DNA of 64,000 nt from assembly GCA_903850915.1 (NCBI GenBank), contig CAINMV010000024.1, positions 1 through 64,000 on the forward strand, in the 5' to 3' direction. How positions within the stretch are numbered: position 1 is the first letter of the stretch; each line of letters begins with the position of its first letter. The DNA is from an uncultured Bacteroidota bacterium. GTDB taxonomy: Bacteria; Bacteroidota; Bacteroidia; UKL13-3. Under the pieces are notes generated by a model. It did no database searches. It saw only the letters and a list, made by a program, of their open reading frames with translations, and was not told the DNA's origin. The position numbers and the translations under genes are program-made. Shown in pieces: positions 1,070 through 51,664 of this stretch.

Positions 1070-4000
1070 TTATCGAACCAATATCACAGTTCCTTTCTTG
1101 CGCATTCCTTGATGATTTACATATCGTCCCTGAACTGACCAGACATAAGTATCTTCCGGACATTCTTTAGTATTATAGGTTCCATCCCACCCAACTTCAG
1201 GATCGTGAGATTCAAAGATTAGTTCGCCCCAACGATCATATACCTTAAATTCATAATCATCAACTATAACACCAAAGCCATCAGGTTTAAATTGATCGTT
1301 TATTTTATCGTTATTCGGAGAGAAGGCATCAGGAACGTAAACCTGTCCATCGGCAATAACTGAAATGTAGTCTACGAAAGTAATCGAATCAACGCAGCCA
1401 TCTTTACTGTATGCAAAAAGTTTAACAGAATATAATCCCGCTTTAGAGAAATGCACTTTAGGATTAGCCGAAGTATCAGTAAAAACAATACCATCATTGA
1501 TGCTGCTTATTTCCCATAAAAATGAATTGCCTCTTAAGGATAAATTAGTGAAGGTAACTTCACTTTTAGGCAAATAATTTTGCAATGGACCACCGATGAA
1601 ATTCGCCACTGGACGATCGAAAACTTGAATGTATGAGGACTTAATAGTATCGTCGTTCCCACTTGTTCCATTTACCTTTAATCTTACTGTGAACTTTCCC
1701 GGGTTATTGTAAACATGACTAGGATTCATCAGTGAAGAAATATTACCATCGCCAAATTCCCAAAAATAGTTTAATGCATTTGAACTTTTATCTTTAAAGT
1801 TTAAAGCTAATGGTAAGCATCCAACAACAACATCGGAGCTAAAATCAGCAATGGGGAGCGCCGGCATTACACGAATAAATCGGAATATAGAGTCTGAGCA
1901 GAAACCATTTGATACCTTAAGCTTGACTTTAAAATTGCCGGTATCTTTGTAAGTGTGCTGATCATTTTTTAAGGTGGAAGTAGTTCCGTCTCCATAATCC
2001 CATAAATAGGAGGCTGACAGTAAAGAGATGCTAGTGTTGGTGAAGTTAACCGTTGAATAAGGCAGCATCTGCGACATTGGAGTTGCAGTGAAGTCGGCTA
2101 TTGGAGCATCCATAATCTTAACAAGATTCAGATACTTCACTGAATCCAAGCAACCATCAGCACCCATAGCTATTAATGTAACAGTATAGCTACCACTAGC
2201 ACCATATACATGGGTGGTGTTGCGAATTGAACTTGCTTGTCCATCACCAAAATACCAGATTATTGTTACTGCATTTGTTGATGAATCTTTAAAGTTTACA
2301 CTTAATGGAGCGCAGCCTGTTATTTGTTTGCCCGAAAATGCAGCATGCACCAAAACATTAACCAATAAGGTCTTTCTAATAGTATCACTGCAACCAAAGT
2401 TAGTTTTCGCAATTAATGTAACCGTATATGAGGTGTCGTTGTATTTCGCAGAGATAAAGTTATGAAATGGATTCCTAGTAGTATCTGTGGTTCCGTCACC
2501 AAAATCCCAACGATATGAAGTTGCATTTATTGATGCATCGTTAAATTGGAAACCAGAATTACCACATCTAATGGGCTTGTTAAAAGTGAAATTTGCAATC
2601 GGCTTAGGGTAAACAGTAATTGGAATAATGGCAGTATCAAAACATCCGAAGGCATTATACGCAAGCATCATCATGGAAAATACCACAGGTGTATTGAAGT
2701 TGTTAATATAGGTGTGTGTTGGACTAAATGAAGTGTCGTTATAGGCATCTCCAAAATACCATTCGTATCGTACTGCTCCAATTGAATTATTATTGAAATG
2801 CACGGTAAAAGGATTACAGCCACTAGCTGAAGCAACATTAACTATACTAATTGGTGCAGTCTTAACCTTTACGATTCTTTTTATTGTATCTGGGCAACCC
2901 CATTGACTAAAACTTATCAGAGTCACAGTATAGGTACTATCAAAATAGTAAATATGTACAGGATTTATGGTGGACGTCTTAGGGCTGCCATCGCCAAAAT
3001 CCCAAATATACGAGGCTGCACCAATACTCATATTTAGAAACTGAACCCTTAATGGGCTGCATCCAGAGTCAGGAACAATAGCAAAATCTGCGAATGGGCG
3101 TGGTTTTACTTCTACGATGCTATAAAAAGTATCACCTTTGCAGCCATGTATTGATGTTGCAATTAGCTTAGGATAATAGAAAACAGAAGCATAGGTAAGG
3201 TTTTGATAGGCGTGACTAGGATTTGAAATTGTATCCGTTTTGCCATCGCCAAAATCCCAAAAATAGGAATAACCATTAATAGTTCTATTTACAAATTGTA
3301 CTGCAAAATTATGACAACCATTGCTAGGGACTAAATAAAAAGAATCTTGTGGTTTTGCATAAACCTTTAATATTTGAACCGAGGTATCGGAACATCCATG
3401 TTCGCTATATGCAATGAGCTTGATGATATAAGATGTGTCTTGAATTTTAGAACCTACAAAACTCACCGTTTCATTTTGATTTAATGATGTCCTTCCGTTG
3501 CCAAAGTCCCACAAGAAAGACATTATTTTAATACTTCCCGTATCTCTTGGAAACGAAACATTGTTAAAAGAAACTAAACCAGAACTGCATATAGCAGTAT
3601 CACTCATTACAAACTGAGATTTTGGTTTTGGATATACTCTAACCTGTTTAAAACTTGTATCTGAGCATCCAAAATTACTGTAAGCAATTAATTTAATTAA
3701 ATAAACAGTGTCTTTTAAAAATGATGCATTAAAAATGACAGACGTGTCTTTAACATTTGAAGTAAGGCCATTTCCAAAGTCCCATTTAAACTTCATGCTA
3801 TCTATTGGTAAGCCATTTCCGTTACTCGACGTGTTAATAAAATTAACAGTAAAAGGGCCACAACTATCCATTCGGCTCATAATAAAACTTGACTTCGCTA
3901 TAGGATGAACTGTTATTGATTTTACAATAGTGTCAGAGCATCCATTGATATTAAATACAATCAATTTTATTTGATAGGTAATATCACTATTTAGTGCTGC

Positions 4001-7000
4001 GGCAAAGGTAACTATATTGTCTTTTGCTGTTGAATACGTGCCATTACCAAAATCCCATTTAAATGTTAATGAACTTAACGGCAAGCCATTACCACTCGTA
4101 GATGTATTTGTGAATTTAACGGTAAACGGCCCACAACTATCGTTGCGACTAACAGTAAAATTAGCTTGCGGTCTGGCTGAAATAGTAATCGGCTTTACAA
4201 TTGTATCAACACAGCCTAAAACAGAAGTGCTTACCAAACGTACATAATAAATTGTATCTAAAAGACCTATGTTTGAAAACGTATGCAACGGGTTTGTAAA
4301 ATTCGAGGTGGTTCCATCTCCAAAATCCCAACTACTAGATACTGCTGATAAAGAATTATTTAAAAACTGAACAGCCATTGGAACACAACCATTGACAACG
4401 AAATTACTAAAATCGGACTTTGGTTTTGCCTTCACGGTAATTAACTTTCGAACAGTATCACCATAACATCCGTTTACTCCTTTTGAAATCATACTCACAT
4501 TGTATGTTGTATCATACAAATACCGACCTATAAATGTATGTGTAGGGTTTAGAGCTGAATCAATTACTCCATCACCAAAATTCCAATAGGATTTAGAAAC
4601 ATTGGCACTAAGATTATTGAAAGAAATGGTTAATGGACTGCATCCATTACTAATAGAATTAAACGTATCTTTAGGATTAGCATAAACCCTAAAGTTTTTT
4701 TGCAACGTGTCGGAGCAACCATGAGAGCTGAAGGCAATAAGTGTTATTTTATAAACAGTATCTTTTGTTGGTGTTCCTAAAAATGTTACTATTGGATTCT
4801 TCTGCGTGCTTGTTTGACCATTGCCAAAGTTCCAATAGAAGGTCATACTATTAATGGTGCCCGTATCTTTAGGAAACGATGAATTGGTGAAAGATACTAT
4901 TGCAGGATTGCAATTAGCGGTGTCCTGCATGCTAAATTGAGCTTTGGGTCTAGCATAAACTATTACATGCTTAATTATTGTATCAGGGCATCCAAAATTA
5001 CTATACGCAATTAGTTTAACTTGATATACCGTGTCACGCAATATCGACTCTTCAAATAAAATAGAGGTATCTTTAGTCAAAGAATTAATTCCATTACCAA
5101 AATCCCATTTAAAACTCATGGAGTTGACACCGAAGTTATTTCCCGGTGAAGAGGTATTGATAAATTGAACTCTCAAGGGGCCGCAGCTATCTGCTCGACT
5201 CATCGTAAAGTTTGCCTTTGCGTTTGGATGCACAACCAACGATTTTACAATCGTATCTGCACAATTGTGTTTTGAGAATGCAATTAGTTTTACAGCATAG
5301 GTTGTATCATTATTCGTCGCTGCAACAAATCGAACTGAGGTATCTCGAGCCATTGAAAAAACACCATTTCCAAAGTTCCAGATAAAGTGCATGCTATTAA
5401 TTGATTCTGTATCACCAGGAGAAGAGTAATTTATAAATTGAACTTTAAGCGGCCCGCAGCTATCCACCCGACTCTGGGTGAAGTTCGCCATTGGGCGAGG
5501 TCGAACATGTATTGGGATAGTTTTGAAATCATTACACCCTTTTGCATTAAATGAAATCAATTTCACATAAAAAATAGTATCACGAGAAGTATTGTTATAA
5601 AAGGTATGAATTGGATTTGGAAGGCTGGTCATTGGCGTGCCATCGTTAAAATACCATTCATAAAAAACAGCGCCTGAGCTTAAATTAGAAAAAGAAACTG
5701 GGAATGGATTGCAACTATCTAAACTAGTTGCTGTGAAATCAGCCACGGGATTAACAAAAGTACGAGCCTTCAATTCAAATGTGTCGCTTGAGCATAAATT
5801 AGTATTGGACGCGATCAAACGAACATTTAAAAGTGCTCCTTGAGATGCAATTAAGGTGTCGCGCAGAAAAGTATCTATTGAAACTAATGAATTGTTAATA
5901 TACCAGCGATATTGATTCGCGTTGGAAGATAAATTAGTAAAATGGAAGTTGAAAGGAAAGCAAACGGCGGTATCATTTACCGTAAAAAATGCTGATGGCT
6001 TAGGCTTTACAAAAATTGTTTTCTTCACTGAATCCATGCAGCCATTGCTATTATAGGCAAATAATTTTACAGTATATGAGCCCGGATTAAGATATGAATG
6101 TGCTTGAGAAGTATTTCCAATTACAGTGCTATTAGAACTGGCATCGCCCCACTGCCAAATAAATATATTAGCACCAGTGCTTGAATTTGTAAATAAAAAT
6201 GGTTCATTCATGCACTTCACGCTAGTATCTATTATGAAATTTGGACTTGGAATATTAACAATATTGAAATGTGCAGTATCATAAGAAGTACAACCTCTAT
6301 TTGTGGTGATTTGTAAAACTACATCATGTGCTCCCGGCGTAGAATATTGGAATACCGTGTTTTTTGAAAAAGCATCATAAATGCCATCATTGGTATAATC
6401 CCAAGCCCATTGTATAATTGTATCACCTGCTAAAGTATATGAAGAGTCGATTAACGCAGTAACCTGACCCAAACATATGGAGGATACCTTAATCTTAGCT
6501 TTTGGATTTACACTGACTTTAATAGAGTCGGTAAACGTTTTAGAACAACCCAATGTGTTGTAAGCAGTGAGTTTTACCGCATAGGTTCCTGGTAAAACAT
6601 AACGATGCGAAGTATCTTTCGAATAGCAAACCACACCATCGCCGAAATCCCAATGATAAGCTGTGATTGTTGAGTTTAGAACTGATGCATTTCCGTTAAA
6701 TGTAATCGTATTTCCATCACAAATATTGGGATATGGCGAATACGTAAATGAAACATTCGGCCGCTCTAGGACCAACACCGACTTTGTAATTTGCGAAATG
6801 CAGCCCCCCGAAGTAATCACCTCAAACTTCACATAATGAAGTCCAGCAGTTGGAAATTTGTATGCTAAATTCTTGATCGTATCTTGTGCTAGCAAAGTGT
6901 TGGTAACTGAATCGCGATAAGAAAACCATGTCATCTGATCGTTATTTAGCGATCCCAGGTAATGTGTAGCATTTGCATTAAAATGAGTGCTATCACCAAG

Positions 7001-8755
7001 ACAAACAGTGTCTGCAATAAAATCAGCTTGCACTCGATCATAAACATGAAATGTTACCTGTTGGCTATCCAAACCACAGGTATCATTAATTTTTAACTTA
7101 ATAGTATAAACACCTGGAGGATACGTTTTAGTTGGTGGATCCTTTAATGTTGAGAATGAGCTATCGCCGAAATCCCATGAATATTTGGCAAAAGGAGAAG
7201 CCCCTGTGGACTGATTAAACCCGCTTAAAGTGTAAGGATTGCAACCATTTCCAATTGGCAAAATGATAGCCTTAGGAGTTTCGTATACCTCAATAATCAC
7301 CCAGGCAGAAACGGTATCACAAGGATTTTTAGCTGTGCAACGTACGGTATATCGTCCTGCTTTATTAAAAGTATGGGTTACCGATTTGGCTGTGTCGGTT
7401 TGTGGCTGGCTTCCTGAAGTATCATCAAAATCCCATTTACGGGTGCGCAATAGTAACCCTGAAGTAACTGTGTCTATAAAATTGATGGTTAAGGGCTTAC
7501 ATCCAAATCGATGACTTTGAAAAAAGCCAGCTTTAGGCAAATTGGTAATAAATATCACTTGTTTAAATGTATCGATTCCGCAATCATTACTATCCAATAA
7601 CTTAACAGTATATTTCCCTGTATCTGGATATAAATGTGTTTGAGGAGATTTTAAATTAATCCATCCAGAATTTGTACCATCACCAAAATCCCAATAATAA
7701 CGCCTAGTTCCAGGCCTACAATTAAGTTGCGAGGCATTCTGAAATGTGAAGGTCTTTCCTTGCTTTTGAATACACTTTATCGTATCGGCCACTGTAATTT
7801 TGGCCCGATCAACGTCATACACTGAAACAGTTTGCCACGTTGTTGCCGATTGACCACAACTATTTTTAGCAGTAAGCTTAATTGTTTTATTGCAATCACT
7901 TGGTACTTCTGCAGTATCTCTTACATAGGTATGGTAGATGGTATCATTGAAGGTTTCTGCACCCATTGTATCAATTTGCCCATCGCCCCAATCCCACATG
8001 AATATAGTGGTGGCAGACGAATTAAAGGAGTTGTTAACGAACCTCACTGTAAAAGGTACACAACCATAATTACCACCAGCCGCAGGGGGCGTTAATGAAG
8101 CTGAGGGTATCCTTTCGTTGACCACCAATCCAAAAAGAGTGTCATTACAACCTCCAGAATCACTAATAAGCTTAAAAGGGAAATGACCTAATGTATAGTA
8201 ATTATGTTTAAGCGGAACTCCTGGCGGAAGTTTCAAACCTGTGGAGTCTGTAGACGTATCGCCCCAAATAATCCTAAAATTATATATCGTATCCACCACT
8301 TCAAATTGCATATTATAATTAATAATACTGCCAGCCGACTGAATACAATTGGTAAAATAAGGAGTCCAAGTGGGGAATGATCCTCCATCATGAATTCCAG
8401 GTGTATTCGTTTTAATAGTATCGACAACCACAAAAGAATCAATACAAAAGTGATTGGGTGATTTCGCCGTTAATTTAATGCGGTAAACTCCAGGACTATA
8501 AAATACATGAGACACATTTGTTAACCCAACTGAAGAATCTAACATGACACCATTAATATACCAATGATATTTAGAAAATGAGTTATCAGTTCCACCTGAA
8601 ATATTCATTAACGTTACACCCCTAGGGATTCCACAGCTATGCGTTTCAGTAATCATAAAGCTAGCGGTAACAAAGGGGCATGAGGCTGCCAGTCTTTGAA
8701 TACTAATCAAAGAAACCAAAAATAGCAATAAAAGAACTTTGTATAACTTATGCAT
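1070..8755 (-). CDS. Giant secreted PKD-repeat protein with type B T9SS C-terminal domain
   Basis: A secreted protein of about 2,561 residues. I chose the ATG at 8755 because it starts directly with a signal peptide (MHKLYKVLLLLFLVSLI); an in-frame ATG at 8788 is also possible. The body is about 28 tandem PKD/Ig-like domains of about 85-95 residues, recognised by repeated WDFGDG, WNFGNG or WYFGDG cores, each followed by a Y/F-x-V-x-L strand and a GC.DT motif. The last 85 or so residues form the gliding-motility / type B sorting domain: VPDAFSPNNDKINDQF, then VYDRWGELIFES, GWDGTYN and an ending in VILVR. Such proteins are exported by T9SS and act at the cell surface or outside, commonly as adhesins; that role is inferred. 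No catalytic domain is visible. Residues about 1027-1909 are a tandem duplication. The gene has its own promoter box at 8806-8813. Confidence 0.93.
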   Translation of the reverse strand: MHKLYKVLLLLFLVSLISIQRLAASCPFVTASFMITETHSCGIPRGVTLMNISGGTDNSFSKYHWYINGVMLDSSVGLTNVSHVFYSPGVYRIKLTAKSPNHFCIDSFVVVDTIKTNTPGIHDGGSFPTWTPYFTNCIQSAGSIINYNMQFEVVDTIYNFRIIWGDTSTDSTGLKLPPGVPLKHNYYTLGHFPFKLISDSGGCNDTLFGLVVNERIPSASLTPPAAGGNYGCVPFTVRFVNNSFNSSATTIFMWDWGDGQIDTMGAETFNDTIYHTYVRDTAEVPSDCNKTIKLTAKNSCGQSATTWQTVSVYDVDRAKITVADTIKCIQKQGKTFTFQNASQLNCRPGTRRYYWDFGDGTNSGWINLKSPQTHLYPDTGKYTVKLLDSNDCGIDTFKQVIFITNLPKAGFFQSHRFGCKPLTINFIDTVTSGLLLRTRKWDFDDTSGSQPQTDTAKSVTHTFNKAGRYTVRCTAKNPCDTVSAWVIIEVYETPKAIILPIGNGCNPYTLSGFNQSTGASPFAKYSWDFGDSSFSTLKDPPTKTYPPGVYTIKLKINDTCGLDSQQVTFHVYDRVQADFIADTVCLGDSTHFNANATHYLGSLNNDQMTWFSYRDSVTNTLLAQDTIKNLAYKFPTAGLHYVKFEVITSGGCISQITKSVLVLERPNVSFTYSPYPNICDGNTITFNGNASVLNSTITAYHWDFGDGVVCYSKDTSHRYVLPGTYAVKLTAYNTLGCSKTFTDSIKVSVNPKAKIKVSSICLGQVTALIDSSYTLAGDTIIQWAWDYTNDGIYDAFSKNTVFQYSTPGAHDVVLQITTNRGCTSYDTAHFNIVNIPSPNFIIDTSVKCMNEPFLFTNSSTGANIFIWQWGDASSNSTVIGNTSQAHSYLNPGSYTVKLFAYNSNGCMDSVKKTIFVKPKPSAFFTVNDTAVCFPFNFHFTNLSSNANQYRWYINNSLVSIDTFLRDTLIASQGALLNVRLIASNTNLCSSDTFELKARTFVNPVADFTATSLDSCNPFPVSFSNLSSGAVFYEWYFNDGTPMTSLPNPIHTFYNNTSRDTIFYVKLISFNAKGCNDFKTIPIHVRPRPMANFTQSRVDSCGPLKVQFINYSSPGDTESINSMHFIWNFGNGVFSMARDTSVRFVAATNNDTTYAVKLIAFSKHNCADTIVKSLVVHPNAKANFTMSRADSCGPLRVQFINTSSPGNNFGVNSMSFKWDFGNGINSLTKDTSILFEESILRDTVYQVKLIAYSNFGCPDTIIKHVIVYARPKAQFSMQDTANCNPAIVSFTNSSFPKDTGTINSMTFYWNFGNGQTSTQKNPIVTFLGTPTKDTVYKITLIAFSSHGCSDTLQKNFRVYANPKDTFNSISNGCSPLTISFNNLSANVSKSYWNFGDGVIDSALNPTHTFIGRYLYDTTYNVSMISKGVNGCYGDTVRKLITVKAKPKSDFSNFVVNGCVPMAVQFLNNSLSAVSSSWDFGDGTTSNFTNPLHTFSNIGLLDTIYYVRLVSTSVLGCVDTIVKPITISARPQANFTVSRNDSCGPFTVKFTNTSTSGNGLPLSSLTFKWDFGNGTYSTAKDNIVTFAAALNSDITYQIKLIVFNINGCSDTIVKSITVHPIAKSSFIMSRMDSCGPFTVNFINTSSNGNGLPIDSMKFKWDFGNGLTSNVKDTSVIFNASFLKDTVYLIKLIAYSNFGCSDTSFKQVRVYPKPKSQFVMSDTAICSSGLVSFNNVSFPRDTGSIKIMSFLWDFGNGRTSLNQNETVSFVGSKIQDTSYIIKLIAYSEHGCSDTSVQILKVYAKPQDSFYLVPSNGCHNFAVQFVNRTINGYSYFWDFGDGKTDTISNPSHAYQNLTYASVFYYPKLIATSIHGCKGDTFYSIVEVKPRPFADFAIVPDSGCSPLRVQFLNMSIGAASYIWDFGDGSPKTSTINPVHIYYFDSTYTVTLISFSQWGCPDTIKRIVKVKTAPISIVNVASASGCNPFTVHFNNNSIGAVRYEWYFGDAYNDTSFSPTHTYINNFNTPVVFSMMMLAYNAFGCFDTAIIPITVYPKPIANFTFNKPIRCGNSGFQFNDASINATSYRWDFGDGTTDTTRNPFHNFISAKYNDTSYTVTLIAKTNFGCSDTIRKTLLVNVLVHAAFSGKQITGCAPLSVNFKDSSTNAVTIIWYFGDGQASSIRNTTHVYGASGSYTVTLIAMGADGCLDSVKYLNLVKIMDAPIADFTATPMSQMLPYSTVNFTNTSISLLSASYLWDYGDGTTSTLKNDQHTYKDTGNFKVKLKVSNGFCSDSIFRFIRVMPALPIADFSSDVVVGCLPLALNFKDKSSNALNYFWEFGDGNISSLMNPSHVYNNPGKFTVRLKVNGTSGNDDTIKSSYIQVFDRPVANFIGGPLQNYLPKSEVTFTNLSLRGNSFLWEISSINDGIVFTDTSANPKVHFSKAGLYSVKLFAYSKDGCVDSITFVDYISVIADGQVYVPDAFSPNNDKINDQFKPDGFGVIVDDYEFKVYDRWGELIFESHDPEVGWDGTYNTKECPEDTYVWSVQGRYVNHQGMRKKGTVILVR
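3064..5709 (-). repeat. Tandem 1,323-bp (441-residue) duplication inside the giant PKD gene
   Basis: Two consecutive blocks of five PKD domains align with an exact offset of 1,323 bp. Anchor points: the DSCGP codons at 5456-5460 match 4133-4137, and those at 5183-5187 match 3860-3864. The order of domain subtypes is the same in both blocks: GC.P, S..DSCGP, MSR.DSCGP, M.DTA.C and P.D.F...NGC. The copies have diverged, so this is an old duplication, still in frame. Block edges are approximate. Confidence 0.85.
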
Positions 8756-8805
8756 TAAATAGTACATTTGGTTAATAAAGTGATTCAATTCGAGTTTGTT
8801 TATAG

Positions 8806-8871: not shown

Positions 8872-9522
8872 CTACATGTCCTTCTTTCTAATTACAAAAA
8901 CCCCATCGCGTATCGGTAGTAATAATTTCTCAACACGCTTATCAGTGAAAATGAAATCGTTAAAAGCTTTCAAAGAAATCGTATCTTTATCGTTATCAGG
9001 CACTTGAGTGTTTATTACCTTTCCACTCCACAATACATTATCGGCCACAATAAGCCCCCCTGGACGCACCCTATCCAGTACCATCTCGTAGTACTTTTTA
9101 TAATTTCGTTTATCCGCATCAATAAACACTAAATCCCATAAATGGGGAATTAAGGGTACTATTTGAGAGGCGTCTCCAGTGTGTTTCACTATTTTCTTGC
9201 TAAAATCAGATCGATTAAAATAACTCAAGGCGATATCATTTAATTCTTCATTATTATCAATGGTGTGCAATACGCCATCAGGCGCTAAGCCTTCTGCAAG
9301 ACAAAGTGCTGAATATCCAGTAAACGTTCCAATCTCCAACACATATTTAGGATTCAACAGTTTACTAATCAAACTGAGCAAACGCCCTTGCAGATGTCCA
9401 CTGAGCATACGAGGCATTAATACGTTAAGATGCGTTTCCCTTTGCAATTCTTGCAAAAGCATCGTCTCAACTTCGGTATGAGCTTCAGCGTAATGTTCGA
9501 TGGCTGAGGAAAGAAATTGCAT
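8872..9522 (-). CDS. Class I SAM-dependent O-methyltransferase (CCoAOMT-like)
   Basis: A 216-residue Rossmann-fold methyltransferase of the caffeoyl-CoA / catechol O-methyltransferase family, near the usual length of about 215-230. Motif I is VLEIGTFTGYSALCLAEGL. HTIDNNEEL holds the acidic residue that binds the SAM ribose, and LVFIDADKRNYKKYYE followed by GGLIVADNVLWSGKV holds the metal-binding Asp, Asp-Asn pattern. In this family it methylates a catechol-type hydroxyl using SAM and a divalent metal; the substrate here cannot be told. Its ATG directly follows the TAA of the upstream acetyltransferase gene (TAAATG), so the two are almost certainly co-transcribed and translationally coupled. 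Confidence 0.92.
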   Translation of the reverse strand: MQFLSSAIEHYAEAHTEVETMLLQELQRETHLNVLMPRMLSGHLQGRLLSLISKLLNPKYVLEIGTFTGYSALCLAEGLAPDGVLHTIDNNEELNDIALSYFNRSDFSKKIVKHTGDASQIVPLIPHLWDLVFIDADKRNYKKYYEMVLDRVRPGGLIVADNVLWSGKVINTQVPDNDKDTISLKAFNDFIFTDKRVEKLLLPIRDGVFVIRKKDM

Positions 9523-43359: not shown

Positions 43360-46300
43360 TTAATTCTTCATGAAACGAACACTCTGTGTTCCATTTTCGT
43401 TAACTACATTTACGAAATAAACGCCAGCCGCTAATCTCGAAACATCCGCTTTGCAGAAGGAAATTACATTGTCGAATTGCATCAGCAGAGCGCCCGTCAT
43501 GTCAGTTATTTTAACCGTTGAAGTAGTTGCTGGTAGAATAACATTTAAAATGCTATTGGTAGGATTTGGGTATGCTGTAATTCCAGCCTGAACATTCATT
43601 TGCAGTCCTTTTGAAGGAGTAAGATCGGTGTTTTGTGCTGTTTTCGCTACATCTCCAATATTGCCATCCGATAATGGAACCTCGAAATGGTTACCACCAC
43701 CAAACCATCCACAATTTACAAGTACATTTTTACAAACAGTTGTTGAACAATGTTTCACACTATCGAAAACAGTTAAACAAACTTGGAAGGTGCGTTTACT
43801 GAAGAACGTATGATACGGGCTCTTCGCCGATGAGAAACTTGAGTCACCAAAAGACCACCAATACGATGTTCCACCTACTGTTGTATTGACAAATCGGAAG
43901 GTATTGCAGAAATTATAGGAGTAGAAATTAGCTACCGGACAACATACAGTAGGTATTACAATTGTTTTGCAGTAATAATTGTAACATGTTGAATCGTTAC
44001 ATTTTACTACTTTCAGGCATATGGTATAAGTTCCAGCAGCAGTATAAGTGTGGCTACCTGGATTCTTCGTGGTTGTATAGCTGTTGTCTCCCCAGAACCA
44101 AGTATAATTCATGCAACTATCCCCATAGCTATAGTTCACCACTTCTACCTTCTTGTTTGGACAATTCACCGTAGCGCCAAAGTTGGCATGAGAGTTACAA
44201 CAATTTACAGGTATAACAATTGATTTACATATATAATTAACACATGTTGTATCACTACATTTTTTTACGATAAGACAAACCGTATAAGTGCCTGCTTGGG
44301 TATACGTATGTGATGATGGATTCTTATCATTACTATATGTTCCGTCACCCCATGCCCATTTAGAAATAAAGCAGCTATCACCAGTAGATGTATTTAACAC
44401 TTCAAGTTTTTTATTGGCACAATTAACACCGTAGGTATAATTAGCTAACATACTGCATGTCGTACAGCTTACCGTTACTGTTTTGCAAATGGTGGTATCA
44501 CGACAAACAACGGTGGCTCCTCCACTTGTACTATATCGTTTTACAGTTAAGCAAACATTGAAGGTGCCATTATGATAGAATGTGTGCGTAAGATTGCGAG
44601 ATGTAGTGGTTGCAGAAGTGCTATCACCAAAGCTCCAGATATAACCATAGTATCCTGTTGTATCTGCTATAGAAGTGTTAAAGGAAACTGTTCTTGATGG
44701 GCAAGAAACATTATAAGACCAACCTGCTAATAATGAACAAGGCGTATTGCAATTAATAGCGATAGATTTACATATCACAGTATCACGACAAACGATATTG
44801 CTATTGCTTGCAAAACGTTTAATAGTTAAACACACGGTATAATTGCCATTGGATGTATATGTATGTAGTGGGTCTTTGGTATATGCTGTGGTATTGTCTC
44901 CAAAAGTCCATAAATATGTATAATATGCACTTGTATCAGCCACAAAACTAGAGAAATTTACGGCTCTCGAAGGGCAAGAAACACTATACGACCATCCACC
45001 ATAAAGTGAACATGTAGAATTGCAATTCACAGAAACCGTTTTACAAATATTAGTGTCCTTACAAACTGTAGTTGTACCAGGCACATACCGTTTGATTTTT
45101 AAGCATACAGTATACGTTCCATTATTTACAAATGTATGTGTTGCATTTTTTGTGGTCGCCGAAGAGCTATCACCGAAGTTCCAGATATATGCATATATTC
45201 CATTTGTATCGCCAACATAAGATAGAAATGATACCGTTTTTGATGGGCATGATAGGCTGTAAGTCCAATTTCCATATAATGAACAGCTAGTGCTCGACGT
45301 GCAATTAACAACAACCTGCTTGCATATTGTGGTATCATGACAAGGAGTTGAAGTATTCGAAGATGTGTATCTTTTGATGGATAAGCATACATTGTACGTT
45401 CCATTGTTAGCATAGGTATGGGTTGCTGATTTGGTTGTTCCCGCAACAGAGTTATCTCCATAATTCCAAGTGTATGAATAGATGCCCGTGGTGTCACCTA
45501 CATAACCTTGAAAAGAAACAACTTTAGTAGGACAAGCAACGCTGTAACTCCAGCCACCATAAAGTGGGCAAGTGTTGGTGCAGCTAGTAACTGTAATCGT
45601 TTTGCATATTGTGGTATCCTTACAAACCACACCATTAAAGTATTTTTTGACATTAAAGCAAGCAGTATATGTTCCATTGTTGGCATACACATGACTTGTA
45701 ACTCTATGATTTAAAGTATCATAGGTTTGATCTCCAAAAGCCCAAGTATAGCGAATTCCGCCTGTGGTATCTGAACAATATCCTGAAAAAGTTACAGTGC
45801 GTGTGGTACAATTATATCCCCAACCCCAACTTACTGTTCCAAAATTACAACCAGTGGCGCAATTTATTGTTACTGATTTGCATTTGATAGTATAACAATT
45901 CGTGTCATTGCAACTTAACGCTTTAACGCATACAGTATACGTTCCATTTCCTGCAAACAAATGGCCTATTGGCGTGGTTTTACTTGTTTGCAACGTTGAT
46001 GTTCCATCACCCCAATACCAACGATAATATGCACATGCGGCGTTGGTCATATTGTTACTATCGATAATTGAGAAAGAAACTTCTTTGCAATTGGCTGTGG
46101 ATGCGGTGAAACTGAAGTCCACATCTTTTAAAGGAGTTGATACTGTAACTGTTTTACAAATGGTAGTGTCTTTACATACAACACCATTATTATACTTTTT
46201 AATATTTAGGCAAGCTGTATATTGGTTAACTGCACCATAAGAATGGTAAGTTACTTGATGATTCAATGTATCATACGTCGCATCTCCAAAACCCCATGTA

Positions 46301-46773
46301 TATTTATAAGTACCTAATGAATCAGAGTTAAATGCTTTGAAGTAAAGGTTTTTATTTGTACAATTTTTAGTCCATTCCCAACCAAGACTGCCCCAACTAC
46401 ATGAAGTGCCAGAAGTACAATTCACAGTGATTGTTTGACACATAGTATCAGCACAGATTCCTGCGGAAGTTTGCTTGAACATAACTAAACAGACAGTATA
46501 TGTACCGTTTGCGGAGAAAAGATATGACGAATTCTTTGTAGTTGAAAAGATGGAAGTACCGAGCACCCACAAATAAGAAACACCACTATCGTTACTATTG
46601 GTAACGTAAGAGGTGTTACTGAAAATATACTCCTTGCAATTGGAAGTACTCGCAGTAGCTGTAAAGCCTGCGTGAAAATTACAAGTGGCTTTTGCCTGAC
46701 CTGATAATAATAGCAAACTTGCTAAGAAAAAACTAAACAAGATGCTTTTGATACGTGAAGAGATTGGTTTCAT
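43360..46773 (-). CDS. Cysteine-rich PKD-repeat secreted protein with type A T9SS tail
   Basis: A 1,137-residue exported protein. A signal peptide covers about residues 1-29 (ending GQAKA). About 11 PKD domains of roughly 90 residues follow, each built around W.FGD or W.WGD cores and a T.CL..K strand. Unusually, each repeat carries about four cysteines (a first C, then SCPS or NCxxK, then CL, then CKDTTICK), probably pairing in disulfide bonds. The C-terminal type A sorting domain is AYPNPTNSILNV, VKITDMTGALLMQ, AAGVYFVNVVNENG, ending SVRFMKN. Repeats at about residues 410-700 are especially alike. No catalytic site; an extracellular adhesive or scaffold role is inferred. Confidence 0.92.
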   Translation of the reverse strand: MKPISSRIKSILFSFFLASLLLLSGQAKATCNFHAGFTATASTSNCKEYIFSNTSYVTNSNDSGVSYLWVLGTSIFSTTKNSSYLFSANGTYTVCLVMFKQTSAGICADTMCQTITVNCTSGTSCSWGSLGWEWTKNCTNKNLYFKAFNSDSLGTYKYTWGFGDATYDTLNHQVTYHSYGAVNQYTACLNIKKYNNGVVCKDTTICKTVTVSTPLKDVDFSFTASTANCKEVSFSIIDSNNMTNAACAYYRWYWGDGTSTLQTSKTTPIGHLFAGNGTYTVCVKALSCNDTNCYTIKCKSVTINCATGCNFGTVSWGWGYNCTTRTVTFSGYCSDTTGGIRYTWAFGDQTYDTLNHRVTSHVYANNGTYTACFNVKKYFNGVVCKDTTICKTITVTSCTNTCPLYGGWSYSVACPTKVVSFQGYVGDTTGIYSYTWNYGDNSVAGTTKSATHTYANNGTYNVCLSIKRYTSSNTSTPCHDTTICKQVVVNCTSSTSCSLYGNWTYSLSCPSKTVSFLSYVGDTNGIYAYIWNFGDSSSATTKNATHTFVNNGTYTVCLKIKRYVPGTTTVCKDTNICKTVSVNCNSTCSLYGGWSYSVSCPSRAVNFSSFVADTSAYYTYLWTFGDNTTAYTKDPLHTYTSNGNYTVCLTIKRFASNSNIVCRDTVICKSIAINCNTPCSLLAGWSYNVSCPSRTVSFNTSIADTTGYYGYIWSFGDSTSATTTSRNLTHTFYHNGTFNVCLTVKRYSTSGGATVVCRDTTICKTVTVSCTTCSMLANYTYGVNCANKKLEVLNTSTGDSCFISKWAWGDGTYSNDKNPSSHTYTQAGTYTVCLIVKKCSDTTCVNYICKSIVIPVNCCNSHANFGATVNCPNKKVEVVNYSYGDSCMNYTWFWGDNSYTTTKNPGSHTYTAAGTYTICLKVVKCNDSTCYNYYCKTIVIPTVCCPVANFYSYNFCNTFRFVNTTVGGTSYWWSFGDSSFSSAKSPYHTFFSKRTFQVCLTVFDSVKHCSTTVCKNVLVNCGWFGGGNHFEVPLSDGNIGDVAKTAQNTDLTPSKGLQMNVQAGITAYPNPTNSILNVILPATTSTVKITDMTGALLMQFDNVISFCKADVSRLAAGVYFVNVVNENGTQSVRFMKN
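44700..45570 (-). repeat. Near-identical PKD repeat run (four units of about 270-285 bp)
   Basis: Four successive units starting with the codons for CPLYGGWSYSVACP, CSLYGNWTYSLSCP, CSLYGGWSYSVSCP and CSLLAGWSYNVSCP. The starts are spaced about 285, 275 and 271 bp apart. They are the most recently duplicated part of the gene. Confidence 0.75.
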
Positions 46774-46829
46774 ATGATGGTGGGATTTATTGTTCTACTT
46801 TTATAGACGAAGAATGCGTGAATCGTTGC

Positions 46830-49334
46830 TTATTGAATAATTACTTTTTGGGAAGTAAAATTACCTTTTTCTTTGATTATCAAGAAATAAATACCAGAGG
46901 CTAACGTCTTGATATCTAAAGTATTAGAATTCACCTCGCCTTTTAGCACACATAAACCCGCGCTATTTATGAGCTCAAAGGTTGCATTAGGCTCAAAATT
47001 CCGCAGTATAACTATTTCATTTTTTGCCGGATTGGAACAAATTGAAGCAAGGTACAATGTTGGTTTCAACAATTTAATTCCTGAAATATCCGTGACTTTC
47101 GCATACGTATCGTTAGTCCTTATGGGATCATAATAATCGAAAACTACATGAGCTTTGTTTTTAATAATTGTACCTACAGTTAAATTAGTATTAAATTTTA
47201 CACTAAAGCCAATATGTCCTCGGCTTGCAACTGCGTCATTGTTTTCGAAAGGGGGTAAATTAATATTGGTGAATGTCCAAACAATAACCCCTTTGCCAAG
47301 AGCAGATGGGCAGCTATAAATTTGAGTAGTGTAAGGATGTGATGCTCCCGTTTCTTGAATGTATTGAATAGAAGAATTAACATCGATAGTATCGATTACA
47401 ATTACATTATGAATTGTATCTGTAGTTGATGTATTTTCAAAATGAATGATGTAGTTTATTTGATTTTTTTCAGCTGTAACTAAGCTAAAAGAATCATTTA
47501 CACCGGGCATCGGATACAAATCTTTCATAACCGCAGTAGCAGTATTTTGAGTTATTTGTTGAATTAATGTATCCGCGTTGTCAGAATTATCTAAGTCGGA
47601 TAGAAATGATGAAGAGGCAATAAAATTGAGTCTTTCGAGTAAATTAAAAGAGTCTGACTTTGCCTTAACCGAAAATGTAATATTGCGTTGCTCCCCAATT
47701 TTTAGGCTTGAAAAACTCCATGTAATTTTATTTCCATTTATTGCCGATGGAGCAGGTTCTGAATTGAATCCAGAAAGCTTTCTACTTAACACCAACTCTA
47801 CCCCAGCAAGTGTATTAATATCTTTAGTTCCATTATTAGTATATGTTAATGTATATCCTTCGTTAATTTCCCGTCGAGAAGAGAAACCACCATTAGGTGC
47901 AATACTAACAGTTATATCAGCACCATTAGATAATTCTTTCATGCAAAAATCAAGTGAGTCATGAATTGAATTAACAAGTGCCGGAATACTAAATGCGCTT
48001 GAAGAACATGTGTTGTCGATACCCCAATTTTTAAATTTCTCAAGAGTGACCGTGGCATTTATGCTTGAATTCGCACCCACGATAACTGAGTAAAAGCCAT
48101 TAGAATCAGTAAGCACATCCCGATTCTCATTTCCGGAAATGTGAATCATTTTTTTCGCAAATGGACGATCAAGATTAATATCGAATTTGCAATTATGATT
48201 TAAATCTTGAAATACCCTTCCACTCAATCGCATTTGTGAAAATACAATTTGAGCTACTCTATTAAAGCGCATATTCCCCATAAAATCATTCGTTGAAATA
48301 AGAAACAATCCACCTTTAAATCTAAACAATTCTAGGATATTAGCATTGGGTAGGTAAGCCGAAGACCAGTTCGAAGCGTAACGAACAGCTGTTGTTGCTA
48401 CCCCTCCAACGAAAAAGGTGCCTGAAGCCCAAAGTTCATTATTATACTCTTGAATATCATTAATTTGCGTGTAATTTAAACCAGCCGTTAGATTCTGAAA
48501 TCCACTTGCAGTGCGATAATAGATTCTCTCATCACCGCCCAAAATAGCGATATTGCCTTGAAACGAAGTTACCTTATAAACGCCATTGCTATTATTGGTA
48601 AAATATGCCGCTTTCCAAGCAAGAACACTGTCGTATACAACTGCCAAATTAGGTGCGTTAAAACCGCCAGCCTTAGTAAAATACCCCCCGATATAAAGTG
48701 AGTCATTTATCACTGCCATGGAATTAATAACACCATTTGTACCTGTATTTACGAGACCTCCAAGGCCACATTTAGTAAAATTGAAGCCATTATAAGCAAC
48801 AATATTTTGGGCGGTATCGTTATTAACCACTGCCAAGAAATACCCTGCAATTATCAATTGATTTTTATAAACCACTAAACTATTTATTACGCCATTTCCT
48901 CCGAGGAAGGCTAATGCCCCACCTCCGAGATTACTTATTACCGCTTCCCATTTATTTAAAATAGTATTAAATCGAACTAGTGTTTTTGTTGAGTTAATTG
49001 TTGGTGACTTCACTGTGAAGTTTCCTGCGATATAGACTTGGCCTTTATAAACAGCAATATTCCGAACCACATTACTACTATCTGAAAAGGTAATCGCGGG
49101 AAGCTGTTGCCAATAGAAACCATTCCATTTATTGATTGTAACCGATTGCCCCTTTCCGAAACCATTGGAATGCCGCGTAGCGATAAATATAAAATTGTCA
49201 TCCGTTGAGGTTGCAATCACTTCATCGGTGAACCCTTGATATAAGGGAAGGCCTTGCGACAAAGGTTTCAGTAGTTGAGCTTTAGCATTAGCAGCCAAGA
49301 AAACCAAGATTGAAAAAAGTATTTTTTTAACCAT
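46830..49334 (-). CDS. Secreted protein with beta-propeller-like region, repeat domains and type A T9SS tail
   Basis: An 834-residue exported protein; the ATG at 49334 gives a compact signal peptide (MVKKILFSILVFLAANAKAQ). Residues about 20-370 have repeated YKGQVYIAGNF, YKNQLIIAGYF and INDSLYIGGYF units, typical of a delta-60/propeller fold. A short SdrB-like domain follows (LSGRVFQDLNHNCKFDINLD). Two beta-sandwich domains of the DUF11/DUF7619 kind lie about 470-770 (YTLTYTNNGTKDIN; INYIIHFENTSTTDTIHNV). The last 70 residues are a type A sorting domain (PTLYLASICSNPAKNEI, LASGIYFLIIKEKG). It is the last gene after the barrel protein (gap about 20 bases). Confidence 0.85.
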   Translation of the reverse strand: MVKKILFSILVFLAANAKAQLLKPLSQGLPLYQGFTDEVIATSTDDNFIFIATRHSNGFGKGQSVTINKWNGFYWQQLPAITFSDSSNVVRNIAVYKGQVYIAGNFTVKSPTINSTKTLVRFNTILNKWEAVISNLGGGALAFLGGNGVINSLVVYKNQLIIAGYFLAVVNNDTAQNIVAYNGFNFTKCGLGGLVNTGTNGVINSMAVINDSLYIGGYFTKAGGFNAPNLAVVYDSVLAWKAAYFTNNSNGVYKVTSFQGNIAILGGDERIYYRTASGFQNLTAGLNYTQINDIQEYNNELWASGTFFVGGVATTAVRYASNWSSAYLPNANILELFRFKGGLFLISTNDFMGNMRFNRVAQIVFSQMRLSGRVFQDLNHNCKFDINLDRPFAKKMIHISGNENRDVLTDSNGFYSVIVGANSSINATVTLEKFKNWGIDNTCSSSAFSIPALVNSIHDSLDFCMKELSNGADITVSIAPNGGFSSRREINEGYTLTYTNNGTKDINTLAGVELVLSRKLSGFNSEPAPSAINGNKITWSFSSLKIGEQRNITFSVKAKSDSFNLLERLNFIASSSFLSDLDNSDNADTLIQQITQNTATAVMKDLYPMPGVNDSFSLVTAEKNQINYIIHFENTSTTDTIHNVIVIDTIDVNSSIQYIQETGASHPYTTQIYSCPSALGKGVIVWTFTNINLPPFENNDAVASRGHIGFSVKFNTNLTVGTIIKNKAHVVFDYYDPIRTNDTYAKVTDISGIKLLKPTLYLASICSNPAKNEIVILRNFEPNATFELINSAGLCVLKGEVNSNTLDIKTLASGIYFLIIKEKGNFTSQKVIIQ

Positions 49335-49354
49335 TCGGGAGTACATTGAAACGT

Positions 49355-50989
49355 TTAAAATTTAAAACCAATTCCCCATCGCATGCCAAAAGCATAAGGC
49401 AACTCGTTGATGCCTGTTTTCTTCTTATACAAGGAGGTAATATTAGATCTAGAATACAACTGTGTGCCCAATTGCCATTTGCTGTTAAGATTGTAATTAA
49501 GTTTCATTTCAACACTACCATTTAATGCAAATTTATTCAGGTCGTTTGCATGGTCTTTAATATTCACAAGAGCATCCGCGCCTACGCTAGGCATTAATCC
49601 TTCTGCTTTTAATAAATAGCTAATTGAAGCCGTTGCCCCAACCTCAAACTCAAATTTAGAAAAGAGTCCAACTTGATAAGAAAAATGGAGCGGCAATTCA
49701 ATGGCGGTAAAGTCATTGTGGTAATTTGAAGTTGAAGTAGTATCACGATAATTATATGGAAAATACCCAATTATTTGCCCCTGAGGATTATATAATGGAA
49801 GAGAATCGTGCAGGTGACTTACAAGTTTATATGTTCCTTGTTGGCCGAAATTATTTTGATGTAATCCAAAGCCAAGAAATATCTTTTTGTATTGGTAATG
49901 AAAATCGGCCCCTACATTAAATCGGGTGGTAATCTGATCAGCAGTGTTTCTTACTTCTAAATATTTTTCCCTATCCGCATTTAAAAACCTACCATTTTGT
50001 GACCCCGCAGCAAAAACCTGTAAAGTGAATCTTGGCTTGGGTTTGCGAATAGTTAAATGTTTTGTATTCTCGCTTTTGGATGGGTATGTCTCGGGGGTTT
50101 CAACATTTTCAAGCTGATGGGATAATTGTTGACCTTCCTTTTTAAATTCTTCAGTATTAGACTTCGCTATCACTTCTTTATCCAAATTATTGGAGCCTGA
50201 AATTTCACTTTTTGTCTGCGTAATTAGTTCGTTATTAACCTTGGCTTGCAACTCTTTTTTATGGGAATTACTAGGTTGGTATTGAATAGGGATATTACGC
50301 ATTACAATAGAAGAATTCACATTCTTTGATTGCTGTTTCGCTGCTAGATTACCCATCAAAATATCGTAAGTTATTTTAGCATTTTCATCAAGTATTGAAT
50401 TGTTAGATAACAACTCGCCGTCATTGTTTCCACCCTTGCTTAACTCATTCTTAATTTCGGCAACGTTTTTGTTTCTACTCGATAGTTGCATTCCAGAGTA
50501 CCAAGCTGGAATCAACAACACCAATAAAAGCCAGGCATATCGAATTCGTTTTCTTTTATTTTGAATTTGCAACACACGATTCCGGATCAGAGCAAATTCT
50601 TTATCGTGCGCTACACCTTGATAATTTTGAAGCGCGTTTTTAAAATGCGCATCAATTTGTCGGTCACGATCAAGCTTGCTTTTTATTTCAGAGAATGGAA
50701 TTGGAAGTGCGTATGAATTATAGTCTTGTAAAGCTTCTTTAAAGTAACTATCTACTGATGTTTTAGATGCGTCAACTTTGGCTTTTATTGCATCGAAGAT
50801 TGTATCATCGGCATTGCCTTCTAAACCGAATAAACTAGTTTTAAAAAAATCATCTACAGAAAGGTTGACTTTTGAAGTATCATCCATTTTATCTTTTATT
50901 GCATCAAACATTCCTTCGTTGGCTTGGCCTTCAAAATTCTGTAAGGGTGCTTTAAAATACTGGTCGATATGTATATTCTTCTTCAACAC
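49355..50989 (-). CDS. Trans-envelope protein: cytoplasmic repeats, one membrane helix and C-terminal outer-membrane barrel
   Basis: A 544-residue protein, start GTG directly after the sigma factor stop (TAAGTG). Four short repeats of the form ID.YFK.AL..y...A....F..IK.K.D occupy residues 8-141. The sequence NKRKRIR (144-150) and a single helix (about 151-168) put the repeats in the cytoplasm. A polar linker (about 170-317) follows. The last 225 residues have alternating amphipathic strands ending in the aromatic GIGFKF, as in small outer-membrane beta-barrels (PorT/OprF-like). A protein with both an inner-membrane helix and an outer-membrane barrel is unusual. Position after an ECF sigma gene suggests an anti-sigma role for the cytoplasmic repeats; this is inference. 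No known anti-sigma zinc motif (H-x3-C-x2-C) is present. Confidence 0.75.
   Translation of the reverse strand: MLKKNIHIDQYFKAPLQNFEGQANEGMFDAIKDKMDDTSKVNLSVDDFFKTSLFGLEGNADDTIFDAIKAKVDASKTSVDSYFKEALQDYNSYALPIPFSEIKSKLDRDRQIDAHFKNALQNYQGVAHDKEFALIRNRVLQIQNKRKRIRYAWLLLVLLIPAWYSGMQLSSRNKNVAEIKNELSKGGNNDGELLSNNSILDENAKITYDILMGNLAAKQQSKNVNSSIVMRNIPIQYQPSNSHKKELQAKVNNELITQTKSEISGSNNLDKEVIAKSNTEEFKKEGQQLSHQLENVETPETYPSKSENTKHLTIRKPKPRFTLQVFAAGSQNGRFLNADREKYLEVRNTADQITTRFNVGADFHYQYKKIFLGFGLHQNNFGQQGTYKLVSHLHDSLPLYNPQGQIIGYFPYNYRDTTSTSNYHNDFTAIELPLHFSYQVGLFSKFEFEVGATASISYLLKAEGLMPSVGADALVNIKDHANDLNKFALNGSVEMKLNYNLNSKWQLGTQLYSRSNITSLYKKKTGINELPYAFGMRWGIGFKF
50567..50968 (-). repeat. Four ~33-residue repeats at the N-terminus of the barrel protein
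   Basis: Units begin at residues 8, 45, 79 and 112 with IDQYFKAPL, VDDFFKTSL, VDSYFKEAL and IDAHFKNAL. Conserved positions are I/V-D-x-x-F-K-x-x-L and, about 20 residues on, F-x-x-I-K/R. They have diverged and are in frame. Confidence 0.8.
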
Positions 50990-51592
50990 TTATTGATTTA
51001 ATGCTTGCTTACTTTGTTTTTCGTTTACCCAAGCCTGAAGTTGTTTCCGAGCTCTCGCCAATTGTGATTTACTTGTTCCTTCGCTGATTCCCAAATGATT
51101 GGCTATCTCTCGATGACTCATCTCATCAATGGCGTACATATTAAAAACAACGCGATATCCAGTTGGTAATTTTTGAACCAACGCCAAAAGTTCATCGACG
51201 CTAAGAGGTTCATTTACCACCTCTGTATGATCTTCAAAATCTTGATCGTTGCTATACTTATCAAACGACTCAATAAATTTTAGTTTTTTGTTTTTTCTGA
51301 AATTATCGATAGCCGTATTCATCATAATACGAGTTATCCAAGTGGTTACGCTGCTGTTGCCTTTGAATTTGTGAAGCGTAGTAAACACTTTGACAAATCC
51401 TTCTTGCATAATATCTTTTGCATCGTCAACACTATTGCAATAACGCAAACATACCCCCAACATCTTATTTGCAAACATTTTATAAAGCTTGCTTTGTGCT
51501 GCGGCATTGCCATTGATACATTCTTGCAGTATTTCTTCCACCTCTAGCGTGTGATTTTTACCTTGGTCGGCGCAAGCCTCCTTGGGTTGCAT
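50990..51592 (-). CDS. ECF-type RNA polymerase sigma factor
   Basis: A 200-residue sigma-70 family factor of the ECF group. Region 2 is at about residues 40-105 (LRYCNSVDDAKDIMQEGFVK, then FKGNSSVTTWITRIMMNTAI). Region 4 (about 140-190) has VVFNMYAIDEMSHREIANHL and the helix-turn-helix ISEGTSKSQLARARKQL. It would direct RNA polymerase to envelope-stress-type promoters. I chose the ATG at 51592 (MQPKEACADQ) over an upstream ATG at 51643, but a TAATTTTG-like match at 51593-51600 touches it and may be coincidental. The next gene begins with the GTG after the TAA, so the pair is tightly coupled. Confidence 0.9.
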   Translation of the reverse strand: MQPKEACADQGKNHTLEVEEILQECINGNAAAQSKLYKMFANKMLGVCLRYCNSVDDAKDIMQEGFVKVFTTLHKFKGNSSVTTWITRIMMNTAIDNFRKNKKLKFIESFDKYSNDQDFEDHTEVVNEPLSVDELLALVQKLPTGYRVVFNMYAIDEMSHREIANHLGISEGTSKSQLARARKQLQAWVNEKQSKQALNQ

Positions 51593-51664
51593 CAAAATTA
51601 ATGTTTTATAGCTAATTGTCAGGCACCTGCCTAACCAACCCAAAAATCAATTTTGAGTTCCCTA

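Follow-up and report, generated by a model that had tools for sequence, protein, structure and literature searches.

The window, meaning the whole stretch of 64,000 nucleotides that was analysed, covers the opening 64 kb of contig 24 in the host genome G000, which amounts to 2.94 Mb in 37 contigs. Close to the start of the window lies a giant gene for a protein with a long array of PKD domains (Table 1). The starts of homologous proteins align to M12 of the listed frame, an ATG at window position 8755; the true protein probably begins at this ATG at residue 12, not at the TTG, and would then have 2561 aa. PKD_4 (PF18911) matches 16 stretches of the protein with 562.6 bits, against a curated cut-off of 27. 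A wider domain model built here counts 28 PKD domains and a stricter first model 27; the numbering D1-D27 used below follows the stricter model. The C-terminal sorting domain scores above the cut-off in both PF13585 and TIGR04131, and judged by its sequence the protein is a T9SS type B cargo, a predicted secreted surface protein with a long PKD array. A Bacteroidetes MAG (L029; 62% in the best segment) is the closest titled relative found.

Other PKD proteins occur in the same organism. The whole host genome has 109 PKD_4 matches, located in several frames of more than 1000 aa. A second secreted group, distinct from the giant gene, occupies window positions 43360-51643 on the minus strand. Two of its proteins carry a Por_Secre_tail, one of 1137 aa that also has nine PKD_4 stretches and one of 838 aa that also has DUF7619; the other members are a 544-aa protein that matches no Pfam model and a sigma-70-like (ECF) factor.

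Table 1. Features of the giant PKD-array gene and its neighbour, in window positions.
Feature	Position	Strand	Residues	Basis and remarks
Giant PKD-array protein gene	1070..8788	-	2572 aa	Longest frame, TTG start; ORF list and translation
Signal-peptide-like start	8681..8755	-	12-36	Read by eye from the sequence and homologous starts
CHU_C / T9SS type B sorting domain	1073..1336	-	2485-2572	PF13585 52.2 bits (cut-off 27); TIGR04131 53.5 (cut-off 35)
Block A, D12-D16	4187..5509	-	1094-1534 (441 aa)	Domain model, pair identities, AF2 model
Block B, D17-D21	2870..4186	-	1535-1973	Domain model, pair identities
Ungapped lag-441 match, copy 1	4661..5629	-	1054-1376	Best of all self-lags, 55% identity
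Ungapped lag-441 match, copy 2	3338..4306	-	1495-1817	Best of all self-lags, 55% identity
Lag-442 continuation, copy 1	4295..4651	-	1380-1498	39% identity
Lag-442 continuation, copy 2	2969..3325	-	1822-1940	39% identity
D16, possible hybrid at the joint	4187..4438	-		Half-domain scores; N-half like D21, C-half like D11
O-methyltransferase gene	8872..9522	-		PF01596; directly upstream of the giant gene, synteny marker

We compared the giant protein and its gene with themselves at all lags. In the protein a lag of 441 aa scored highest (958), followed by 91 aa (883), and in the DNA a lag of 1323 bp was far ahead (159.2), with 273 bp second (53.6); 40 codon shuffles gave a best score of 18.4 over all in-frame lags from 300 to 2400. 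The off-diagonal at 1,323 bp is thus present as the top DNA score, and it is not the only one, given the strong 91-aa lag. A direct-repeat search returned the 1323-bp spacing six times (3494/4817 and 3495/4818 [300 nt, 70% identity], 3384/4707, 3657/4980, 3814/5137 and 4087/5410), in agreement with the original prediction, which had placed anchor codons exactly 1,323 bp apart at two positions; a spacing of 1326 bp was returned once (2986/4312).

In this giant protein of a freshwater bacterium, predicted to be secreted to the cell surface, a block of about five domains is present in tandem copy, and the copy is both old and real. An exact 441-residue period had been predicted for the whole block; 441 is indeed the best self-lag, but the match is exact in period only over one ungapped run of 323 aa at 55% identity, after which the gain of one codon near aa 1376-1380 moves the lag to 442, as is to be expected since the duplication is old. 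Taken together, the 441 and 442 matches span just over one unit, which fits a single tandem duplication. Three of the five domain pairs are strong (D12/D17 52%, D13/D18 66% and D14/D19 54% identical) and two are weak (D15/D20 35% and D16/D21 46%), so the recurrence of five subtypes in the same order is clear for the first three pairs and weak for the last two. The DNA of the copies has diverged by about 37%. At four-fold degenerate sites with the same residue, 18 of 59 bases are identical against approximately 29% expected by chance; this saturation means that the duplication is old. All five genomes of the genus (g1) carry it, and the four other species show the same self-lag at 53-55% identity. 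A five-domain tandem duplication occurred in the ancestor of the genus, and both copies diverged later.

The five-domain signal of the window protein is local and does not run through the whole array. A local run test at k = 5 gave p = 0.003, the floor of 300 permutations, and whole-array autocorrelation gave z = 2.0 at offset 5 and 3.2 at offset 1. Growth took place on two levels. The domains of the 91-aa triplets D12-D14 and D17-D19 resemble their own neighbours, with D12 and D13 57% identical, and a lag of 91 aa, the length of one domain, is the top self-lag, within the 91-aa triplet, of the six complete family orthologues that lack the block. Because this lag is strongest in unduplicated orthologues and D12 and D13 are so similar, the triplet was built by single-domain duplication first and the doubling of the block came later. 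The earlier view that the protein grew by blocks and not by single domains is therefore only half borne out, as three domains of each block also come from single-domain duplication.

The joint between the copies falls at D16, for which a hybrid pattern appeared in nine of ten half-domain score comparisons from five related genomes; this is suggestive only of a hybrid domain. Junction domains tested in G015, G058 and G169 were not hybrids. We infer unequal exchange, the route named in the original prediction, as the molecular mechanism, for which the hybrid-like D16 speaks and against which the three non-hybrid junctions stand. Breakpoints within the conserved W-D-F-G-D codons, an idea suggested by D16, were rejected as a general rule because the DNA edges lie near a domain linker in the younger case L050 and elsewhere in the domain in L120, L153 and L157, and because the G015 and G058 junctions are not hybrids.

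Orthologues were searched with a 731-aa N-terminal stretch of the protein, which matched 16 of 64 family genomes at 1e-60 and, among 396 genomes taken from the class, 13 at 1e-85. The gene is complete in 12 of the 16 family genomes and is cut at contig ends in G003, G033, G082 and G083, G082 belonging to a bin that is 65% complete, where its contig measures 4.5 kb. The 12 complete orthologues differ by steps of five, with 23 PKD domains in six (G017, G026, G018, G027, G085 and G021), 28 in five (G000, G001, G002, G004 and G015) and 33 in one (G058, from a bin with 8% contamination), so that block number varies among homologues as had been anticipated. Against this five-step pattern, the orthologues G394, G410 and G440 from outside the family hold 19 or 20 domains. 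At 2131 aa the G018 protein is 441 aa shorter than the window protein (2572). In 11 of 24 loci (g1, g14, g2 and G015), with and without the extra block, the gene next upstream of the giant gene encodes an O-methyltransferase, and same-locus orthologues lacking the block have exactly five domains fewer (23 versus 28). Among the 24 loci searched, those of G021 and G058 have no O-methyltransferase gene directly upstream. The separately expanded G015 orthologue (L115, 2571 aa) is nearly equal in length to the window protein.

We built trees on two neighbouring domains, using D14-15 and D13-14 of the window protein and their counterparts. Copies A and B of g1 are sister groups (95/93 and 100/99), with the species nested in each, which together with the same-locus difference of 23 versus 28 domains upholds growth by a five-domain block. 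The G015 copies are placed apart from the g1 copies, on the side of G021 and genus g2. The AU test rejects a clade of g1 and G015 A copies (p 0.0004 and 0.00009) as well as one of their B copies (p 0.038 and 0.0004), and with them one shared origin of the g1 copy and the G015 copy. A clade of G015 and G082 A copies is likewise rejected (p 0.0013), and one of their B copies is not (p 0.198).

Five-domain lags were found in further lineages, at 434 aa in G015, 432 in G058, 433 in G082, 435 in G198, 440 and 435 in G169, and 417 in G305. For G058 the domain tree shows a unit present three times, beginning at D10 of that protein. Units of 435-440 aa are common to G169 and G198, the G198 copies being very young, and G305 has its 417-aa unit near the N-terminus. 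In L152, the G198 locus, domains 14-16 and 19-21 are separated by tree distances of 0.02-0.09, which makes them the most promising site for locating recombination joints. Judged by the nearest neighbours of the domains in the tree, a reading with no support value of its own, the units differ in phase between lineages, so they are not mere re-copies of one segment. The five-domain gains in G015, in G082, in G058, in the G169/G198 family and in G305 are separate events, with good but not complete support. That relatives gained domains five at a time separately suggests that a set of five domains serves as a single building unit.

How general a unit of five is was assessed in a census of 160 distinct arrays with at least 10 PKD domains. 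The census is not a random sample; it was made up of loci fetched by similarity to the window protein and of the genomes searched here, and a phylum-wide PKD_4 search was kept out of it because proteins of other classes took up its listed matches. Of the 160 arrays, 47 contain a periodic run that is significant at p < 0.01, where one or two are expected by chance. The unit was one domain in 8 arrays, two in 16, three in 3, four in 3, five in 16 and seven in 1. A unit of two is as common as one of five, and units of three, four and seven also occur in other PKD arrays, which counts against the explanation favoured below. The arrays with a two-domain unit (16/160) include L052, L085, L089, L101 and L103; L164 and L173 have a four-domain unit and L168 a three-domain unit. 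An earlier census of 109 arrays, also with at least 10 domains, had given strong periods of 1, 2 and 5, and the view that only two and five occur was dropped when the census of 160 added 3, 4 and 7.

The picture differs inside the orthogroup of the window protein, where 11 of 11 multi-domain runs have a unit of five, versus 5 of 28 outside. Since BLAST put 147 of the 160 arrays in one cluster, clustering was abandoned as a way to count independent events and membership was assigned by the N-terminal region (at least 300 bits, starting before residue 300; scores show a gap from 328 to 273 bits). The 11 runs include L152_+6193, a C-terminal piece of the broken G198 gene added by hand. With k = 1 runs left out of the table, Fisher's test gave p 0.001 by events (five against none) and 2.6e-6 by genes, a count in which relatives enter several times and the outside arrays are also not all independent. 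Three outside arrays with a unit of five, L050, L120 and L159, form one further orthogroup (41-50% identity).

The explanation we favour, and consider likely as a whole, joins an ancestral five-domain tandem duplication to separate five-domain gains elsewhere, with five kept as a structural unit in what would be an adhesin stalk. In the ancestor of the genus an in-frame segment of about 1.3 kb, encoding five PKD domains, was duplicated in tandem within the gene, and both copies diverged afterwards. In other lineages, with good but not complete support, the same gene gained five-domain segments separately, with units of 417-441 aa and differing phases. Segments of many sizes may arise by illegitimate or unequal recombination, of which five-domain segments would be retained in this gene, presumably because five domains make up a structural unit in it. 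What singles out five may be a structural register, comparable to the seven of nebulin. A stronger form makes a set of five PKD domains a genuine structural quantum, for example one superhelix turn in a multi-stranded filament like that of GhpA, so that length can change only by fives; it seems doubtful to us.

Recombination alone could also favour five, if ancestral likeness between domains five apart guided unequal crossing over and the unit itself was not selected. A weak similarity at lag 442 (33-36%) in the unduplicated G018, G027, G021 and G085 and the possibly hybrid D16 are in its favour, yet nine unduplicated orthologues have no clear offset-5 signal (z -1.1 to 2.0), as against z 2.1-3.9 at offset 1 in the six unduplicated orthologues of the family. 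With offset-1 likeness the greater, a bias driven by likeness should give steps of one, and differing phases also count against it; we regard this account as unlikely. The same lack of a clear offset-5 signal, the AU rejection of single A and single B clades for g1 and G015, and the differing phases tell against one ancient block duplication before the genera split, followed by loss in the 23-domain lineages. Such a history would account for the equal unit size in several genera, and blocks are easily lost by recombination, but we hold it to be improbable.

A single shared duplication might instead be disguised by gene conversion between copies within each lineage, which would render the copies of a lineage sisters, as in G015, and so mimic separate pairs. 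The g1 copies, however, group by copy across species, so that there has been no conversion since that genus arose, and conversion would leave both the differing phases and the same-locus 23-domain orthologues unexplained; its probability is very low. Least of all do we credit an artefact of assembly, which has a negligible chance of being correct. The genome is indeed in 37 contigs and contig ends truncate the gene in G003 and G033, but five genomes agree, and mis-assembly is unlikely because the copies differ by about 37% with saturated four-fold sites and the lag recurs in four other species.

Block A is predicted by AF2 as five beta-sandwich domains with a mean pLDDT of 93 and a pTM of only 0.64, the latter a point against the favoured explanation. 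The best eight Foldseek matches for this block are without exception GhpA fragments from Aureispira (TMq 0.46-0.60, 14-19% identity). A profile of 27 array segments also finds GhpA (E 2.4e-184), as does the window protein alone (E 2.2e-28), the single stretches being weak, overlapping and composition-biased. The sorting-domain region, aa 2479-2552, aligns with GhpA 5810-5882, where the sequence stretches are again weak and biased. Matches of this kind indicate a likeness of PKD-type arrays and not membership of GhpA.

GhpA of Aureispira sp. CCB-QB1 (PDB 9flp and others) is a long array of PKD-like beta-sandwich domains, of possibly similar arrangement. It is described as a T9SS-secreted heptamer whose 5898-residue monomer spans the filament (PMC11205867, PMC13319060); the window protein carries a T9SS type B sorting domain. 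The two differ in size (5898 residues versus about 2570), their structure matches are at 14-19% identity, and the matches do not establish colinear orthology. The heptamer and the hook are features of GhpA. SprB-type gliding adhesins are also large Bacteroidota surface proteins delivered by the T9SS (PMC11205867); a search of the window protein against NCBIfam gave the general T9SS type B sorting domain and no SprB-specific model. From the GhpA likeness and the secretion signal we infer that the array may form a stalk or filament in an adhesin of the cell surface. The case also links how long giant T9SS-secreted PKD proteins are to a filament geometry that they may have.

The duplication of blocks is in itself already known. 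Bjorklund et al. (2006) describe the duplication of several adjacent domains at once in the middle of an array, with preferred unit sizes in some families (nebulin seven, cadherin five, fibronectin-3 four), find domain repeats mostly in eukaryotes, and leave undecided whether repeat expansion is random or controlled; PKD is mentioned there 0 times (PMC1553488). In the open-access library searched, and with the terms used, no listed title or abstract dealt with block duplication in bacterial PKD arrays. The window protein resembles the multi-domain units of Bjorklund et al. in that several neighbouring domains were copied together mid-array. The novelty is that a single bacterial gene has, in separate lineages, grown by five domains at a time. 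The same gene with 23, 28 or 33 domains at one locus amounts to separate natural experiments with the same outcome, and the series lets a recombination bias be told from selection on a structural period. If five domains do form a structural quantum, the array would be a bacterial counterpart of the seven-domain super-repeat of nebulin. Compared with the families described by Bjorklund et al. (PMC1553488), the present case concerns a single bacterial gene in which separate gains have had the same unit size.
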